Assembly: GCA_943787445.1 (NCBI GenBank)
Contig: CALSML010000003.1
Coordinates: forward strand, 40,256 to 104,255
DNA: 64,000 bases
Source: an uncultured Alphaproteobacteria bacterium
GTDB taxonomy: Bacteria; Pseudomonadota; Alphaproteobacteria; UBA6615
Reading direction: 5' to 3'
The position numbers were made by a program, and so were the translations under genes. This document shows, piece after piece, positions 14,592 to 29,058 of this stretch. The notes below the pieces were generated by a model, which saw nothing but the letters and a program-made list of their open reading frames with translations, ran no database searches and was not told where the DNA came from. How positions within the stretch are numbered: position 1 is the first letter of the stretch; each line of letters opens with the position of its first letter.

Positions 14592-15494
14592 TCAGCTCTC
14601 CACCAACTCGCGGGCGCTCCGGCGAACCCGCTCACGGTGCAGAATATAAATCCCGCTGGCAGCGATGATTGCCGCACCTATAAACGTCCACAAATCCGGG
14701 AAGTCGCCGAAGAAGGTGAGTCCCAAGATCGTCGCCCAGACCAGCTCGGTATAGGCAAATGGTGCAACCAGCGGCGCCTCGGCGCGCTGGTAGGCAAGAA
14801 TGATAGCCCAATGCCCAAGACCACCCAGAAGACCAGCCCCGGCCAACATTCCCCACTCCTGGAGGGTTGGCGTTTGCCAGAAAAATGGCACGATGGCTGA
14901 CATCACCACACCGCCGACGATCGCGGTGTAGAACACGGAATTGATCGGATCCGTGCGATGACTGATCAGTCTCGTGATGATCTGATACACGGCGTAGAAG
15001 ACTGTGACTGCGATCGGCAGAAATGCCGCCAGTTGGAAAATCCCACTGCCCGGTCGAATGATGACCAGCATGCCCAGAAACCCGACGAACACAGCAATCC
15101 AGCGTCTCACGCCAACCCTTTCACCCAAAAACGGGACAGACAGTGCCGTGATCAGCAGCGGCGCAATGAAGGTGATGGCAACCGCATCTGCCAGCGGCAT
15201 AAATCCAACAGCTGTGAACATGCAGGCTGTTGCCAACAGGACCAGAATTGAACGCGCGATCTGCAGGCCTTTATCCGAGCCCGACAACAATGTGGGAATT
15301 CGCTTCGGGAAGAGACACAGCACGATGATGGTATGGAAAAAATAGCGACCCCAGATGATTTCCGCGAGCGGCAGTTCGGCAATCCTGAGTTCCTTGACGA
15401 AGGTATTCATCGCCGCGAAGCAGGCGACGGCAAAACACATCATCAGAACCCCGCGGATGGGGGCATCGGTGGGACGTGATTTTTTCACCGTCAT
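14592..15494 (-). CDS. DMT superfamily (EamA) permease
   Basis: An inner membrane transporter with about ten hydrophobic helices in two EamA repeats. The start MTVKKSRPTDAPIRG at 15494 puts the first helix (GVLMMCFAVACFAAMNTFVK) directly after a short cationic tail, giving 300 aa, the family norm. The longer ORF would add a 37-residue non-homologous extension. FLGERVGVRRWIAVFVGFLG ends repeat one, and GLTFFGDFPDLWTFIGAAII ends repeat two. The substrate is unknown. It is divergent from the carboxymuconolactone decarboxylase-type gene. Confidence 0.85.
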   Translation of the reverse strand: MTVKKSRPTDAPIRGVLMMCFAVACFAAMNTFVKELRIAELPLAEIIWGRYFFHTIIVLCLFPKRIPTLLSGSDKGLQIARSILVLLATACMFTAVGFMPLADAVAITFIAPLLITALSVPFLGERVGVRRWIAVFVGFLGMLVIIRPGSGIFQLAAFLPIAVTVFYAVYQIITRLISHRTDPINSVFYTAIVGGVVMSAIVPFFWQTPTLQEWGMLAGAGLLGGLGHWAIILAYQRAEAPLVAPFAYTELVWATILGLTFFGDFPDLWTFIGAAIIAASGIYILHRERVRRSARELVES

Positions 15495-17140: not shown

Positions 17141-18169
17141 ATGGCTCAACATCAAAATCGCCGCGTCATCTTGAAGGAGCGCGCCACCGGTTTGCCAAAG
17201 CCGGAGTTGTTCGAGACTGTCGAAGATGATGCGCCCTCTCCCGGTCCCGGAGAGGTACTGATCAACAATGTCTACGTATCGGCCGACCCCGGCATGAAGG
17301 GCTGGATTAGTGTCGCCCGCAACTACGCCAGTGTGGAAACAGGAACGACCATGAAAGCTTTCAGCGTGGGCGTGGTTGTGGAATCCAACCATCCTGATGT
17401 GCGGGAAGGTCAGGTTGTTGCCGCCAATACCGGATGGGCGGAATATGTTGTCGCGGATCCCGAGAGCCCCACATTTCGCACGGTGAATCCTGACGATGCC
17501 CCGATCTCGACGGCGCTTGGCATTCTGGGCATCAACGGCTTCACCGCCTATTGCGGTCTTCTGGAAGTGGGCCAGCCAAAGCCCGGCGACACCGTTGTCG
17601 TTTCCACTGCGGCCGGTGCCGTGGGCAGCGCCGTTGGCCAGATTGCAAAGATCAAGGGTTGTCGCACGGTCGGCATTGCAGGCGGACCGGAGAAGACTGC
17701 CTTGTGCACCGAGGTTTTCGGATTTGACGCCGCGATCGACTACAAGGCGACCGATGACATGGATGCGGCCCTACGCGCGTCCTGCCCGGACGGGGTGGAT
17801 GTCTATTACGACAATGTTGGCGGTACGACCCTCGATATACTGCTCGGACAGATCAATCTGCACGGCCGGGTCGTGATCTGCGGGACTGCGGCAACCGAAT
17901 CCTGGATTCCTCAGCCCGCCGGCCTGCGCCCGGAACGCAATCTGCTGGTGAACCGTATCCGGATGGAGGGCTTCCTGACCTTTGATTTTGTCAAACAGTA
18001 TCCTCAGGCCCACACCGACCTCCTGCAGTGGCTCAAGGATGGCAAACTAGCCTATCGCGAGGATATCGCTGAAGGTCTGGAAACCGCGCCAGCCGGGCTT
18101 GCTGGTCTCTACGCTGGCACGAACAAGGGCCGGCAGCTCATCCGCGTGCGGCCCGATCCGTTCGTCTAG
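17141..18169 (+). CDS. NADP-dependent oxidoreductase (CurA/leukotriene B4 reductase-like MDR)
   Basis: 342 aa, starting MAQHQNRRVILKERATG at 17141 (AGGGA upstream). Recognisable parts are YVSADPGMKGWISVARNYAS, the cofactor loop STAAGAVGSAVGQIAKIKGC and VYYDNVGGTTLDILLGQINL, all typical of the PTGR/CurA group, which reduce enone double bonds with NADPH. No zinc ligands are present. It converges on the PKS operon with a 4-nt overlap at the stop codons. Confidence 0.88.
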   Translation: MAQHQNRRVILKERATGLPKPELFETVEDDAPSPGPGEVLINNVYVSADPGMKGWISVARNYASVETGTTMKAFSVGVVVESNHPDVREGQVVAANTGWAEYVVADPESPTFRTVNPDDAPISTALGILGINGFTAYCGLLEVGQPKPGDTVVVSTAAGAVGSAVGQIAKIKGCRTVGIAGGPEKTALCTEVFGFDAAIDYKATDDMDAALRASCPDGVDVYYDNVGGTTLDILLGQINLHGRVVICGTAATESWIPQPAGLRPERNLLVNRIRMEGFLTFDFVKQYPQAHTDLLQWLKDGKLAYREDIAEGLETAPAGLAGLYAGTNKGRQLIRVRPDPFV

Positions 18170-18663
18170 CTGCGGCGCGGTGCGATAGCCTGTTCTTCGA
18201 CGCGAATGCGCCAGACCAGCACAAGCGCATTGGCAATCCCGAACACAACGGACAGCTCCCAGACACCTGCAATCAATGGCACCACGATCAGTTCCGCTTC
18301 CACGATCAGATAGTTAGGGTGACGGACCAGACGAAACGGCCCACGTTTGACAAGGGGTTGCCCCGGTACCGTGATCACGCGGGTCGTCCAGTAACGGCCA
18401 AGCGATGTCAGCACCCAGACCCGGCCCAGTTGCAGCGCAATGAAGATCACCAGCAACACCGGATTGATGGTTGCTTCAGCAGGCACGAAGACAATCAGGC
18501 TGACCAGCCAGGCTGCATGAAGCGCTACGATCAAGGGGTAGTGGTTCGCCCCGTGTTCGACACCGCCATTGGCCAGAAGCCGTTTCGTGTTCACCCGGGC
18601 GATCATCAGTTCGATGAGCCGCTGCACCACAATGAGTGCGACAAGCAGATACCAGATGCTCAT
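18166..18663 (-). CDS. Isoprenylcysteine carboxyl methyltransferase (ICMT)-like membrane enzyme
   Basis: 165 aa with four or five hydrophobic helices. The ICMT/PEMT-type core RVWVLTSLGRYWTTRVITVP and RGPFRLVRHPNYLIVEAELI contains the conserved RHPNY cofactor motif. Its ATG overlaps the stop of the type III polyketide synthase (ATGA), so translation is coupled. In Bacillus subtilis the pair BpsA/BpsB has the same composition, with BpsB methylating the alkylpyrone made by BpsA. By analogy this enzyme probably O-methylates the PKS product, not a prenylated protein. Confidence 0.85.
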   Translation of the reverse strand: MSIWYLLVALIVVQRLIELMIARVNTKRLLANGGVEHGANHYPLIVALHAAWLVSLIVFVPAEATINPVLLVIFIALQLGRVWVLTSLGRYWTTRVITVPGQPLVKRGPFRLVRHPNYLIVEAELIVVPLIAGVWELSVVFGIANALVLVWRIRVEEQAIAPRRS

Positions 18664-19706
18664 GACGCCTCCAGCAGTGCGAAAGTCGCCGTAAAACCGG
18701 GCCCAAGTGCCGACATCAACCAGTGCCCCGGTGTCCCGTCCTTCATGGTCTCCGCGAGCACGAACATGGCCGTCGCCGCGGACATATTACCGTTCTGGCG
18801 TAACACCTCACGGGCGGTCGTCAGCTCGCCTGGCGGCAATTCGTAGAGTTCCTCGAGGGCATCGAGGACTTTGGCGCCGCCCGGATGGCAGGCATGTCGC
18901 GCGATATCTCCCACGGTCAGGCCCTGATTAGACAGAAACGCCTTGGCGGGTGCCCCCAGCTGAGAGCGGACCAGATGCGGGATGTCCCGCGAAAACAGAA
19001 CCCTCAGCCCGTCATCACCGATCTCCCAACCCATCACATCAAGGGAATCGTTCCAGGTGTGCTCCCCCCAGGCCTTAACCGCCGGCCCTTCGAACCCGCA
19101 GCCCAGCAAAGCGCCCGCGGCCCCATCCCCGAACAGAGCGGTGGCAATGATGTTGCTCTTGGAAATGTCATTTACCCGGAACGTCAATCCGCAAAGCTCA
19201 ACAACCAGAAACAGCACACAACTGTCCGGGCGCGTCATCGCGAGCTGTGCCGCGCGGGCCAGCCCCGTTACGCCGCCGCCGCAACCCAGTCCGAATATCG
19301 GCAGACGTTGCACATCCCGGCGGAACGGCAGGCGCTCGAGCAACAGAGCATCGAGGCTGGGCGTTGCCACCCCGGTCGTGGACACGACCACAAGTCCGTC
19401 CACATCTTTTGCCGTGATGCCGCACTCGGCGAAGAGCTTTTCCGTAACTTCCGCCAGCAGATCGACTGCATTCTCGATGAACAGGTCATTGCGTTCGGAA
19501 AACGGATGGGACTGCGCGTACCAGTCAATCGGCACGCAGGAATGACGCGTTTCGATCGCAGCATTGCGATAGGCGTCGGTGAAGCGATCAAAACCCGGAA
19601 TATCGGGCGCGAATATTTCCCGCGATCGCTCGATCACCTCCGACTGTTCGAGAACATGCGGGGGACAGGCTGTGGCCACTGCGGCGATACGAGCTTGAGG
19701 CAACAT
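18660..19706 (-). CDS. Type III polyketide synthase (chalcone synthase-like)
   Basis: 348 aa, a complete thiolase-fold enzyme. The catalytic cysteine is in IFGLGCGGGVTGLARA (near residue 150), the histidine in ARHACHPGGAKVLDALEELY, and the asparagine in REVLRQNGNMSAATAMFVLA. Bacterial members condense a fatty acyl starter with malonyl units to alkylpyrones or alkylresorcinols. The order on the minus strand is DMT transporter, PKS, ICMT-like methyltransferase, with gaps of 8 bp and an overlap. The chain length of the product cannot be predicted from sequence reading alone. Confidence 0.92.
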   Translation of the reverse strand: MLPQARIAAVATACPPHVLEQSEVIERSREIFAPDIPGFDRFTDAYRNAAIETRHSCVPIDWYAQSHPFSERNDLFIENAVDLLAEVTEKLFAECGITAKDVDGLVVVSTTGVATPSLDALLLERLPFRRDVQRLPIFGLGCGGGVTGLARAAQLAMTRPDSCVLFLVVELCGLTFRVNDISKSNIIATALFGDGAAGALLGCGFEGPAVKAWGEHTWNDSLDVMGWEIGDDGLRVLFSRDIPHLVRSQLGAPAKAFLSNQGLTVGDIARHACHPGGAKVLDALEELYELPPGELTTAREVLRQNGNMSAATAMFVLAETMKDGTPGHWLMSALGPGFTATFALLEAS

Positions 19707-19714
19707 AAATCTTC

Positions 19715-20632
19715 CTAACTTGTAGCAGCGGCGGCGGTTGCCCGCGCAAGCTTACGCTCGCGCAAGGCAACATAAGTCGCGCTGGCAAAAATCATGAAAC
19801 CACCCACCCACGTAAATAGATCGGGAAACTCGCCAAACAACAAAAAACCGAACCCGGCAGCCCAGATCAGCTTAAAGAAATCCATTGGCATCACCACACC
19901 GGCATCCCCCACCCGCAAGGCCTGAGTCAGGGTCAGATGCCCCGTGGTTCCCATCACGCCCATCACCAGCAAGATCGCGTATTGTTCGGGCGTCGGCCAG
20001 GTCCACACGAACAAGGCCGGGATCAGCGACAGCGGTGTCATGAACAGAACCATGTAGACGACAATGGTCGGTGTGGCATCCCGGCGTCCCAGCGTCTTTA
20101 TCACGATCAGGATTACTCCCCAGATCGCAGAAGAAGCGAGAACGAGAAGCGGGCCAGTTCCGACCTCGATAATTCCCGGGCGGATGATAACCAGAGCGCC
20201 GGCAAACCCTACGAACAAGGCCGCCCAGCGACGCCAACGGACTGTCTCACCCAGCACCAGAATGGCCAGCACCGTGGCAAAGAGAGGTGCTGTGAAGGCC
20301 AGCGAATTCGCGACCGCGAGCTGGGTTGTCGTAAGACCGAGAAAGAACATCATCATCGCGGTCACATGGCCGAAGGAACGTATGACATGCCCCTTGATCT
20401 GACCGGTACTTAGAATGCCGCGACCGTATTTCAGAAACAGAATCGCCACGACCGGCGCTCCAAAGGCTGTCCGAAAGAACCCGATTTCGAAGGCATGCAG
20501 CCCCTGTGCAGCCAGATGCTTGATCATCGTGTGCATGCTCACGATGAAGACCGTGGTGACCAGCATCCACGCCATACCTTCGAGGTTCGGGGTCAACCAT
20601 ACTGGCCGGCGAATACCAATTGTGCTCAACAC
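19715..20632 (-). CDS. DMT superfamily (EamA) permease, first gene of the PKS operon
   Basis: 305 aa with about ten hydrophobic segments in two EamA repeats (for example WMLVTTVFIVSMHTMIKHLA and FGFLLFGEFPDLFTWVGGFM). The ORF track extends it to 478 aa, but similarity starts near LSTIGIRRPVWL. A GTG at 20632 with GGAG five bases upstream is the likely start, and the extension overlaps the divergent gene at 20723. Only 8 bp separate its stop from the PKS start. Export of the PKS product is a reasonable but untested guess. Confidence 0.8.
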   Translation of the reverse strand: MLSTIGIRRPVWLTPNLEGMAWMLVTTVFIVSMHTMIKHLAAQGLHAFEIGFFRTAFGAPVVAILFLKYGRGILSTGQIKGHVIRSFGHVTAMMMFFLGLTTTQLAVANSLAFTAPLFATVLAILVLGETVRWRRWAALFVGFAGALVIIRPGIIEVGTGPLLVLASSAIWGVILIVIKTLGRRDATPTIVVYMVLFMTPLSLIPALFVWTWPTPEQYAILLVMGVMGTTGHLTLTQALRVGDAGVVMPMDFFKLIWAAGFGFLLFGEFPDLFTWVGGFMIFASATYVALRERKLARATAAAATS

Positions 20633-20722
20633 GTGAACTCCGGCCGGGCATCGGTTGTGCGACCACTTTGAATGCCGCAGAATGCCTGCAAGATTGATGA
20701 CAATTCTCAGGAGAGATGAACG

Positions 20723-21043
20723 ATGATTACGGCACTTGTACAGTTCAAAGTCAAAGTCGGCACCACCCGCGAGGAAGTCTTCACCAACATGCAGAATGTT
20801 GCACCGAAGTTCGAGGGCATGCCGGGCCTGATCCGGAAGAATTTCGTCTTCGACCGCGACCGTGGTGTCGGCGGTGGTGTCTACACCTGGGAAAATCGTG
20901 AGGCCGCCGAAAAGGTCTATGTCGAAGGTGGCCCCTGGCGCACGGCCATCAACACCCTCTACGGCGTTGACCCGGATATCACGATCTTCGAAACACCGGT
21001 GATCGTTGACAACGAACAGGGTGAAATCAAGAAAGCCAGTTAA
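20723..21043 (+). CDS. YdhR-like putative monooxygenase
   Basis: 106 aa of the dimeric alpha+beta barrel fold (ydhR family). Features are MITALVQFKVKVGTTREEVF, GLIRKNFVFDRDRGVGGGVY and WENREAAEKVYVEGGPWRTA. The ATG follows GGAGAGATG-type spacing. Related proteins are cofactor-free oxygenases or aromatic-binding proteins; the substrate is unknown. It is divergent from the PKS operon and 30 bp upstream of an MDR reductase on the same strand, so the two likely form an operon. Confidence 0.8.
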   Translation: MITALVQFKVKVGTTREEVFTNMQNVAPKFEGMPGLIRKNFVFDRDRGVGGGVYTWENREAAEKVYVEGGPWRTAINTLYGVDPDITIFETPVIVDNEQGEIKKAS

Positions 21044-21073
21044 TCGGCCCAGACCCAGACAAAGCGCACCGAC

Positions 21074-22072
21074 ATGAAAAAAGCAGTTCAGTTCTCCCGC
21101 ACCGGAGTCCCGTCCGAGGTCGTCGAACTCATCGACATGGAAACCGCCCACGTTGGCGATGACGACGCATTGATCGATATCGAAGCGGCGGCCATCAATC
21201 CCTCACATCTGCTGACTCTGTCGGGTGTCTACGGTGTCCAGCCGGAACTGCCCGCGGTCCCGGGCGCCGAGGGCATCGGCATCATCGGGGCGGTCGGCAA
21301 GAATGTGACCAACGTCAAGGTCGGGGATCGAGTGATGATCCCGCCCTATACCGGGACGTGGCGGCAACAGGCCGTGGTCAAAGCCTCCGACATTGCTGTG
21401 ATGTTCCCCAGTGACGGTGATCCGATCCAGATGGCCATGATCATGGCCAATCCGCCAACCGCCTGGCTGCTGCTCAGGACGGTTGTCAATCTGCAGCCCG
21501 GTGACTGGGTTATCCAGAACGCCGGCAATTCGGCTGTCGGCCAGTACGTCATGCAACTGGCCGGGATTTATGGCTTCAAGACTGTAAATGTGGTGCGCCG
21601 CGAGGGTCTGGACGACTTCATCACCAAGGCCGGGGGCGATATCTGTGCCGTGGATGGCCCCGATCTGGGTGAACGGGTCAAAGCCGCCACGGGCGGGGCA
21701 GACATCAAGCTTGCGATTGATGCCGTTGCAGGCGAATCGACCCAGCATCTCGCCGATTGTCTTGCCGATGGCGGGACCATTGCTAATTACGGGCTGCTGT
21801 CGAAGAAACCGGCCCAGCTATGGCCCGACGACATCATCTTCCGGGAAATCACCCTAACCGGCGTCTGGCTGACCCTCTGGCTACGCAAATATTCAACGCC
21901 CGAAGAACGCCTCACGGTCTACAACGAACTCGCCGGCTATATTGCCGAAGGCCGGATGCATGCCGAGGTCGAAGCCACCTACCCGCTTTCGAAAATCAAG
22001 GACGCCGTTGCCCATGCCATGCAGGGTGAGCGCAGTGGCAAGATCGTACTCCTGCCCAATTCCGAAAGCTGA
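21074..22072 (+). CDS. MDR family 2-enoyl thioester reductase-like (MECR/ETR) oxidoreductase
   Basis: 332 aa, starting MKKAVQFSRTGVPSEVVE. INPSHLLTLSGVYGVQPELP and the long insertion WVIQNAGNSAVGQYVMQLAG followed by VNVVRREG are typical of mitochondrial-type enoyl thioester reductases and related NADPH:quinone reductases. Zinc ligands are absent. It is cotranscribed with the YdhR-like gene. The actual acceptor (enoyl thioester, quinone or other enone) is open. A truncated DM13 fragment begins immediately after its stop. Confidence 0.85.
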   Translation: MKKAVQFSRTGVPSEVVELIDMETAHVGDDDALIDIEAAAINPSHLLTLSGVYGVQPELPAVPGAEGIGIIGAVGKNVTNVKVGDRVMIPPYTGTWRQQAVVKASDIAVMFPSDGDPIQMAMIMANPPTAWLLLRTVVNLQPGDWVIQNAGNSAVGQYVMQLAGIYGFKTVNVVRREGLDDFITKAGGDICAVDGPDLGERVKAATGGADIKLAIDAVAGESTQHLADCLADGGTIANYGLLSKKPAQLWPDDIIFREITLTGVWLTLWLRKYSTPEERLTVYNELAGYIAEGRMHAEVEATYPLSKIKDAVAHAMQGERSGKIVLLPNSES

Positions 22073-23556: not shown

Positions 23557-24990
23557 ATGTCCGATACCACAGTTTCCACCAGTTTTCTTAGTCGCACCCG
23601 GGGTTTGCTGCGGCGCGCGCTGCGCGATGTCGTCGACGGCGCCGCAAGCCTGACCTCCCGCGGGAGTCTGGATATCAGCCCGGACTTACCCGATGATGAT
23701 CTGGCGCGCCTACAACAGCAGATCGATGCAAGCCTGTCGGGCCGTGGCGGTGAAGCCTCCGCCCGCTCGAATGCTTCGGATCTCGCGCGCTGCTACCTTG
23801 ATCTGAATGCCGAAGGTCGCTTGCGGTTCATGCAGCTTCTAAACGATGAATACGGCATCGAACCCGCCCATTTGAATACGACCATGGATGCTGTTCGGGA
23901 GACGTCGGATGATCCCGCAGCCTATGCCAAAGCGATCACGGCACTACGGGGACAGCTCGAATCTCCAAGAATGAAATTATTTCGTCAGTTCAATGGTTTG
24001 GAGCATGGTATTAAGTTTCTTGTTGATCTTCGGGCGGACCTCATCGGACTGCTGCGGGACAACCCGGAACTGCGCCCGCTCGATGCCGATTTGAAGTATC
24101 TGCTGTCCACATGGTTCGACGCTGGTTTCCTGGTCCTGCACCGCATCACCTGGGCGGCCCCGGCAGATTTGCTGGAAAAACTGATCGCCTACGAGGCCGT
24201 GCACGAAATCCGATCCTGGAACGATATGAAGAACCGGCTTGAATCCGACCGCCGATTTTTTGCCTTCTTCCATCCCTCCATGCCCGATGAACCCCTGATT
24301 TTCGTTGAAGTCGCACTTGTGAACGGGATTGCGCGGAATGTTCAGACCCTTCTGGATGAAAGTGCCCCCATCAAGGACCCGGAAGAGGCCGACACCGCGA
24401 TTTTCTACTCGATTTCCAACGCCCAGCGTGGCCTGTCCGGTGTGAGTTTCGGAGACTTCCTGATCAAACAGGTTGTCGAACGCCTCTCCGCACGTCTGCC
24501 TAACGTCAAGACCTTTGCAACCCTATCACCGATACCGGGGTTTCGGCGGTGGCTGGATGGCCGCATCGCTGAAGGTGCAGACCTGCTCAATCACGAGCAG
24601 GAAGATGCGTTGCGGGCCGTTGCCGGAGACATTCCCGAAGACGCTTTGGTTCTGCAATCCATTCTGGATCGGACCAACTGGCATCTGGATCCGGCCATTG
24701 CCGACACCATGGAGCCGATCATGACCCATCTGGTTGCGGGCTATCTGCTCTATCAGCGTCGTGAACCCACGGGAACGGCGCTGGATTCAGTCGCACATTT
24801 CCATCTCAGCAATGGCGCACGGGTCGAAAGCATCAACTGGCTAGGTGATATGTCGCCCAAGGGATTTGCCCAGTCAGCAGGGATGATGGTCAACTATCTC
24901 TATGACAAGACACTGATCGAGCAGAACCACGAGGCTTATGTCAGCGGCAGCGAGATTCCCGCATCCAGCGCCGTGCGCAACCTGCTCTAG
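23557..24990 (+). CDS. Malonyl-CoA decarboxylase
   Basis: 477 aa, full length. The N-terminal helical domain (LRFMQLLNDEYGIEPAHLNT) is followed by the GNAT-like catalytic domain with FYSISNAQRGLSGVSFGDFL and, near the end, SVAHFHLSNGARVESINWLG, which hold the catalytic serine and histidine. The enzyme converts malonyl-CoA to acetyl-CoA and CO2 and is cytosolic. No malonyl-CoA synthetase or malonate transporter gene is next to it, so a role in lowering malonyl-CoA is as likely as malonate use. A dienelactone hydrolase gene follows 26 bp later. Confidence 0.93.
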   Translation: MSDTTVSTSFLSRTRGLLRRALRDVVDGAASLTSRGSLDISPDLPDDDLARLQQQIDASLSGRGGEASARSNASDLARCYLDLNAEGRLRFMQLLNDEYGIEPAHLNTTMDAVRETSDDPAAYAKAITALRGQLESPRMKLFRQFNGLEHGIKFLVDLRADLIGLLRDNPELRPLDADLKYLLSTWFDAGFLVLHRITWAAPADLLEKLIAYEAVHEIRSWNDMKNRLESDRRFFAFFHPSMPDEPLIFVEVALVNGIARNVQTLLDESAPIKDPEEADTAIFYSISNAQRGLSGVSFGDFLIKQVVERLSARLPNVKTFATLSPIPGFRRWLDGRIAEGADLLNHEQEDALRAVAGDIPEDALVLQSILDRTNWHLDPAIADTMEPIMTHLVAGYLLYQRREPTGTALDSVAHFHLSNGARVESINWLGDMSPKGFAQSAGMMVNYLYDKTLIEQNHEAYVSGSEIPASSAVRNLL

Positions 24991-26729: not shown

Positions 26730-29058
26730 TCAACGGTTGAGTGCACGCCACACCTTTTCCGCTGTCGCTGGCATCTGAAAATCGACAACCGCACCGCGCG
26801 TGGCGAGTGCGTCTGCCAAGGCGTTGAATATCGCCGGCAAGGCCCCCACGATTCCAGCCTCTCCCACACCCTTCACACCTAGGGGATTGGTCGGCGACGG
26901 CACTTCGTGAAAATCCACCTGCATCCGCGGCTGATCAACGGCACGGGGCATTCTGTAGTCCATGAAGGACCCTGTGAGGAGTTGGCCGGTCTCCCGGTCA
27001 TAAATAATCTCTTCCATCAGAGCCTGCCCGATGCCCTGCACCACACCGCCATGCACCTGTCCGTGAACGATCGGCGGGTTGATGACAACGCCGCAATCGT
27101 CAACGGCGGTGTATCGATCCAGCATAACCACCCCGGTATCGGGATCGATTTCGAGCTCACAGACATGACAGCCATTGGGAAAGTACTGCTCGGGCGCTTC
27201 AAACTCTTCGGCTGAATTCAGGCTTGTCGGAACATCCTCCACACGAATGGTTCTGACCTGTGTCGCCAGCTCAAGAAGTGGGATGTGTCGATCTGTTCCT
27301 TTCACCTGAAACGCCCCTTCGGAAAACTCGATATCGGCGACCGAAGCCTCAAACAGATGGGCAGCCGCCACACGACCTTTCTCGATCACCGCGTCACAGG
27401 TCAGCGCGATCGCCGACCCCGCCATTGTCATCGAACGGGACGCGATCGTGGCAATGCCGCGTGGCGCGAAATCACTGTCGCCTTGACGCAGATAGACAGA
27501 CTCGAACGGCACGCCAAGACGTTCAGCGATGACCTGGACAAAGCTGGTTTCATGGCCTTGCCCCTGACTTTGAGTGGCCACCACCAGATCGACAGTCCCG
27601 TCTTTTCTGAATTCGACTTTGGCACCTTCGTGGGGTGAACCACCTATGCACTCCAGATAAGAAGCGAGTCCGCGTCCCCGCAATTTCCCATCCTGTTCAC
27701 TTCTGGCACGGCGTTCGAAAAAACCGTCCCAATCCGCCAGTGCCACGGTCTTGTCGAGAACGGCCTCGAATTCACCGGAATCATAGATGCGATCCACGGG
27801 TGTGGCGTAAGGCATCTGATCGGGAGAAATCATGTTTCGTCGGCGCAACTCGACGGGGTCGTGCCCTGTTTCTCGTGCCGCCTGATCGACAAGGCGTTCG
27901 ACGATGTAGGATGCCTGCTCACGTCCAGCCCCACGATAGGGACCAACAGAATTGGTGTGAGTCAGGACAAGACGCACGTCGATATCGATCACCGGCGTGC
28001 GATACACCAGCGCCAGCCCGTTGGGCATGTTGCGCAACGGCATCCCGGTTCCGTTGCAGGCGTAGTAGGAGCCCATGGCATCATCGACAGCAACACGCAG
28101 CGCCAGAAAATTCCCCGATTCATCGAGAGCAAGCGAAGCCTCGATCACGGCATCGCGTGCATGAGAATCCCCCAGAAAATGTTCTGAGCGAGTACCGGTC
28201 CATTTGACCGGCTGCTTCAGGGCACGCGCTGCAAACAGGATCGCGATATCTTCAGGGCAAGGCTGTTCCTTGACCCCGAAGCCGCCACCGACATCTCCGG
28301 TCAGAACGCGCATCTCCGTACGCGGAATGTCGAAGACCTGTTCACATACAAATCTCCATGAAGTACTGAACGCCCTGGCTGGATGCGACCAGGGTGAAGC
28401 GTCCCTTTTCCTCATTCCAATCAGCAATGCTCGTCCGAGGCTCCAGCGGTGCTGCGACAATTCGGTTGTTCACAAGGGACAGTCGAGATACGTGGGCGGC
28501 TTCTGCAAACGCTAGGTCGGCAGCGTCCTTGTCCCCTCGATGCCAAACTTGGCCGATATTTCCCGGCGCATCCTCCCAAACAAGAGGCGCATCTGGAGCT
28601 ACGGCGTCGGCAATCGTGATTGCAGCAGGTAATTCAGCGATATCTAGTATTACGAGATCTGCGGCATCCCGCGCCTGAGCCTGGGTTTGCGCCAGAACGA
28701 GGACGACTACCTCTCCGACATGGCGAACCTTTCCCTGCGCCAGCCCTGGGCGCGGCGTGTGCAACGGTCGCGCTGACTGAATTTGCGCCGATTGATATTT
28801 TGGCCAGCGTGCCACGATATGCCCAACACCAGCCGCAGCCAGATCATCGCCGGTAAACACCGCCACAACGCCAGGCGCGGCGATGGCAGAGGTCGCATCA
28901 ATATTCAGGATCGTCCCGTGCGCGACTGATGAACGCACAAACGCAGCATGGACCTGGCCGTCACGGCCGACATCATCAGCGAACCGTCCCTGCCCGGTCA
29001 GAAAACGAACATCCTCGCGCCGTCGGACTGGCTGTGCGATTCCGTGCTTTTCCGTCAT
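26730..29058 (-). CDS. Xanthine dehydrogenase family molybdopterin-binding (CoxL-like) subunit, one frameshift
   Basis: The N-terminal ORF (MTEKHGIAQPVRRREDVRFL) carries the a/b hammerhead domain and breaks after VASSQGVQYF near 28345. The other ORF resumes at CEQVFDIPRTEMRVLTGDVG and contains GGGFGVKEQ, the MPT-binding regions RGAGREQASYIVERLVDQAA and GVGEAGIVGALPAIFNALAD. 2329 nt equals 776 codons plus one extra base, giving 775 aa, normal for the family. The enzyme hydroxylates aldehydes, purines or CO-like substrates with a Mo cofactor. The usual FAD and 2Fe-2S subunit genes are missing from the neighbourhood. Confidence 0.88.

Follow-up and report, generated by a model that had tools for sequence, protein, structure and literature searches.

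A conserved type III polyketide synthase-methyltransferase pair lies behind a permease gene that is probably not its dedicated exporter in an uncultured alphaproteobacterium

The window analysed here is a stretch of 64,000 nucleotides from an uncultured alphaproteobacterium. Within it, genes for an EamA/DMT permease, a type III polyketide synthase (PKS) and an ICMT-like methyltransferase lie consecutively on the minus strand (Table 1); the first two are 8 bp apart and the last two share an ATGA. This confirms the arrangement described in an earlier note on this DNA. The gap separates the permease stop codon (19715-19717) from the PKS ATG at 19706, and AGGAAG, a ribosome-binding-like motif 5′ of the PKS, overlaps that stop codon. 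The ATGA at 18660-18663 joins the PKS stop to the ICMT ATG, whilst the permease begins with GTG at 20632, preceded by GGAG five bases upstream. At the opposite end the ICMT stop is overlapped by the stop of a convergent dehydrogenase gene, and this stop-stop overlap marks the far edge of the PKS-ICMT pair. The tight gap between permease and PKS is not conserved, with spacing at this junction varying from ~5 to 125 bp in relatives. No sigma-70-like site was found in a promoter scan of 17900-21100, nor did a terminator scan of the same interval return a signal above shuffles. NG86 dN/dS values of 0.03-0.17 against relatives, many with saturated dS, are low and therefore indicate purifying selection on permease, PKS and ICMT. 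All Pfam matches at the locus exceed their curated cut-offs.

Table 1. Genes at and around the PKS-ICMT pair, in window positions.
Feature	Position	Strand	Remarks
EamA/DMT permease, 305 aa	19715..20632	minus	Pfam PF00892, two copies; GTG start; co-directional with the pair, judged outside its function
Type III polyketide synthase (PKS), 348 aa	18660..19706	minus	PF00195/PF02797; Cys142-His274-Asn307 triad
ICMT-like integral-membrane methyltransferase, 165 aa	18166..18663	minus	Pfam PF04140
YdhR-like small protein	20723..21043	plus, divergent	Pfam PF08803; belongs to permease-side block
Curcumin/enone-reductase-like dehydrogenase	17144..18169	plus, convergent	Directly next to permease in PKS-less locus L040

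The PKS matches Chal_sti_synt_N with 77.6 bits and Chal_sti_synt_C with 48.1 bits (Pfam cut-off 27), and C142, H274 and N307 are invariant in an alignment of 52 alphaproteobacterial PKS sequences. Its nearest solved chain is Pks11 of Mycobacterium tuberculosis (4jao, E 3e-59). Moreover, the AlphaFold model (pLDDT 94.8) has Pks11 as its best Foldseek match, at 34% identity and a TM of ~0.9 and with the same Cys-His-Asn triad, in a list headed by Pks11, CylI, THNS and Pks18 (TM 0.86-0.93). By domains, triad and fold, the gene product is a type III PKS. Pks11, its nearest relative on both measures, is an alkylpyrone synthase, which supports the parallel with alkylpyrone formation drawn in the earlier note. 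Pks11 converts long-chain acyl-CoA into methyl-branched alkylpyrones (PMC6274091). A genome search found one type III PKS in the source genome, which also carries a methylmalonyl-CoA mutase gene; therefore, both common extender units are plausible. A second methylmalonyl-CoA mutase match (G000:C9:75983-77510) is split over several frames, like a frameshifted or broken gene.

The methyltransferase matches the ICMT family with 88.7 bits (E 4e-25, cut-off 24). Its invariant columns comprise an RHPNY core (His115, Pro116, Asn117, Tyr118) together with Arg152/Glu156. The predicted model is helical (pLDDT 95.1) and its top fold match is the eukaryotic ICMT 5v7p, with a probability of 1.00 and a weak E of 0.06.

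To place this pair in context we searched for PKS genes in 40 relatives, 24 genomes of the source family and 289 genomes of the class, and took neighbourhood DNA around 64 PKS genes, including the one under study. A same-strand ICMT-like gene follows the PKS in 63/64 of these alphaproteobacterial loci, nearly always within 70 bp. The lone locus without such a partner (L094) holds a distant PKS of 30% identity. Pairs are also plasmid-borne in Azospirillum oryzae, Rhizobium sp. BG4 and Sphingomonas parapaucimobilis. We note that the PKS of Rhizobium etli 8C-3 (L112:5001-6053) has no adjacent annotated ICMT, an apparent exception in an incomplete gene table. PKS and ICMT-like methyltransferase thus form a real and widespread conserved two-gene unit in Alphaproteobacteria, and the parallel drawn earlier with bpsA-bpsB of Bacillus holds at this level. 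In Bacillus subtilis, a type III PKS and a methyltransferase are encoded together by the bpsA-bpsB operon, whose main products are alkylpyrones, which affect biofilm and sporulation (PMC5686519). The likeness lies in the two-gene operon and is one of description; Bacillus belongs to another phylum, and in one family the alphaproteobacterial pair follows a permease gene. Likewise by description, RpsA of Rhodospirillum centenum is a characterised type III PKS of the same class, acting on acyl-CoA with malonyl-/methylmalonyl-CoA (PMC6274091). Type III PKSs are also tied to a methyltransferase in HidABC and in planctomycete methyltransferase-oxidoreductase-PKS operons (PMC10896814). However, these have the PKS last and include an FAD oxidoreductase, a gene that the unit described here does not contain.

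In contrast to the methyltransferase, the permease has a restricted association with the PKS. It matches EamA over two stretches with 98.7 bits, as a two-domain EamA/DMT protein. A homologue immediately precedes the PKS in 12/14 PKS-bearing genomes of the source family, and wherever a family genome has the pair at this site, the permease is there too (12/12). Outside the family, none of the 49 PKS loci has a permease homologue near the pair. The 12 permease-linked PKSs form one clade of the PKS tree (12 rows, one change) with moderate support (SH-aLRT 89), and therefore point to one relocation. As to the origin of the pair, 22/49 non-family loci (L046-L082) have a DUF502 gene no more than ~2 kb upstream of it, and these DUF502-linked loci often also carry recG, sdhE and a second helicase gene. 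In the source genome, recG, sdhE and DUF502 are clustered on another contig (G000:C21), without the pair. It is likely that the pair relocated within this lineage. The move would have been away from the DUF502 site, a direction that the PKS tree, given its weak resolution, does not prove.

We then considered relatives that have the site without the pair. No PKS match was obtained in G022 (100% complete) or in three genomes of genus g2 (95-100% complete), yet all four carry the permease at 58-71% identity. Their loci (L040-L043) keep the permease, the YdhR-like gene, both dehydrogenases and malonyl-CoA decarboxylase (MCD) in order. The G022 locus, L040, runs as in the window through DMT2, AhpD-like, lipoprotein, PqiA, dehydrogenase, permease, two YdhR-like genes, dehydrogenase, SDR and MCD, the place of the pair being taken by ~120 bp; L041-L043 resemble L040 but carry other genes in this gap. 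In a tree built from four flanking genes (MCD, dehydrogenase, permease and SDR) the four pair-less genomes fall at two points among the PKS-bearing genomes, the starred branches forcing two changes, which implies that PKS and methyltransferase were jointly lost twice. Moreover, the branching among the 12 permease-linked PKSs follows that of the flanking genes. The simplest history is one arrival of the pair and two joint losses, with the permease staying each time. PKS absence in the same-genus genomes G001, G002 and G005 was rejected as loss and left out of this count, as it looks like incomplete assembly: the syntenic contig of G005 breaks off inside the adjacent gene, and most or all of the region is missing from G001 and G002.

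Several other genes of the block deserve comment. The YdhR-like protein (ydhR, 32.6 bits) had been suggested to act on the PKS product. In the loci that lack the PKS, its gene still adjoins the permease. It therefore goes with the permease side and not with the PKS, and the suggestion is unsupported. Tandem duplicates of this gene occur both with the pair present (L032:5766-6433) and with the pair absent (L040:5511-6178). We set aside MCD (23557-24990) as a gene serving the PKS, since it is equally conserved in PKS-less relatives. A second EamA/DMT permease at 14592-15494 of the window, 32% identical to the first, is also conserved in the block. At 26730-28460 lies a molybdopterin-binding (aldehyde/xanthine oxidase-like) protein that may be shortened, its match beginning at MoCoBD_1 position 70.

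Taken together, these data favour, with a probability of about 0.72, a BpsA/BpsB-like pair that makes and methylates an alkylpyrone (or resorcylate) and that moved behind a pre-existing permease gene. By analogy with Pks11, RpsA and BpsA/BpsB (PMC6274091, PMC5686519), from which we take substrates, product and methylation site, the PKS would be primed at Cys142 with a long-chain fatty acyl-CoA (or acyl-ACP), carry out two or three extensions using malonyl-CoA, perhaps also methylmalonyl-CoA, and close the ring to release an alkylpyrone (or alkylresorcylic acid). A ring oxygen would then be methylated by the membrane-embedded methyltransferase, giving a neutral lipid that presumably remains in the membrane or close to it. 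A single move, in an ancestor of the source family, would have brought the pair to this site, where it may now be co-transcribed with the permease. Permease and divergent YdhR-like gene would represent an older block, independent of the PKS product.

Two alternatives concern the chemistry of the pair. The methyltransferase could be a genuine protein-S-isoprenylcysteine methyltransferase unconnected with the PKS product, as its Pfam family and ICMT-like predicted fold might imply. However, it scores 22.5 bits on the protein-S-isoprenylcysteine O-methyltransferase equivalog model NF040696, against a cut-off of 160, and its gene succeeds a type III PKS almost without exception in the survey above, such that we consider this extremely unlikely. 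Less easily dismissed, though still unlikely, is a methylated alkylresorcinol or other phenolic lipid, made in the manner of SrsA/SrsB, as the product in place of an alkylpyrone. RpsA of Rhodospirillum centenum yields both dimethylated pyrones and resorcylic acids (PMC6274091), and SrsB methylates alkylresorcylic acid, according to the title of a reference in PMC5916927. Against this, the top match in both sequence and fold is a pyrone synthase, Pks11, and no SrsC-type flavoprotein hydroxylase is found among the neighbour families listed, the downstream list being partial.

The remaining alternative is that proposed in the earlier note, a make-cap-export operon in which a recruited permease exports the methylated pyrone and has another job in PKS-less relatives. 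The shared strand, the 8-bp gap and the PKS ribosome site overlapping the permease stop all speak for it, as does the retention of the permease beside the pair in every family genome with the pair at this site. Other transporter types also adjoin the pair in single lineages. A Pfam scan of neighbours outside the permease-linked clade, covering 41 ORFs immediately downstream of the pair and 38 immediately upstream (the downstream family list being partial), gave single EamA, MFS and AI-2E-type cases among the matches listed, the MFS and AI-2E-type genes being downstream ORFs. The EamA permease (L078:3564-4493, genome G094, an unrelated family) starts ~30 bp past the ICMT gene but is of another subfamily, with no similarity to the permease under study by phmmer. 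DHA2-type efflux genes adjoin the pair on the plasmids of Rhizobium sp. BG4 and Sphingomonas parapaucimobilis (L109:6546-8114 and L110:3301-4857). These neighbours are a scatter of unrelated types and not a conserved partner, and three transporters per ~40 neighbours is probably close to what chance would yield in bacterial genomes. The presence of the permease is not tied to that of the pair: four pair-less family genomes keep it, and therefore its maintenance is independent of the PKS product, whilst the 49 non-family loci have pairs and no homologue nearby. Adjacency itself carries little weight because all of the flanking block is conserved whether or not the pair is present. The earlier note had called for a survey of three-gene co-occurrence in other alphaproteobacteria, and had named a lack of conserved association elsewhere as grounds for refutation; we find the association confined to the source family. 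The permease is therefore not part of the PKS-ICMT unit and is probably no dedicated exporter, and we regard the export operon as improbable. We prefer the reading of a two-gene unit that moved behind an existing gene.

Permease and pair may nevertheless have become functionally linked later in the source family, given that none of the 12 genomes that have the pair here has separated the two. In its specific form, that after the pair moved in the EamA permease was co-opted there as a methylated-alkylpyrone translocase, we consider this a long shot. If true, such co-option would add a lipid-like molecule to the substrates of a permease superfamily that is mostly associated with drugs and small polar metabolites.

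In summary, this locus is a clear case in which tight, operon-like spacing misleads, as relatives that lost the pair keep the permease. The pair itself is an ordinary member of an already known kind of PKS and methyltransferase combination. Across Alphaproteobacteria the type III PKS-ICMT pair, often found beside recG and DUF502, has been inherited, moved and lost as one, and therefore it is the pair, and not the trio, that is worth studying.
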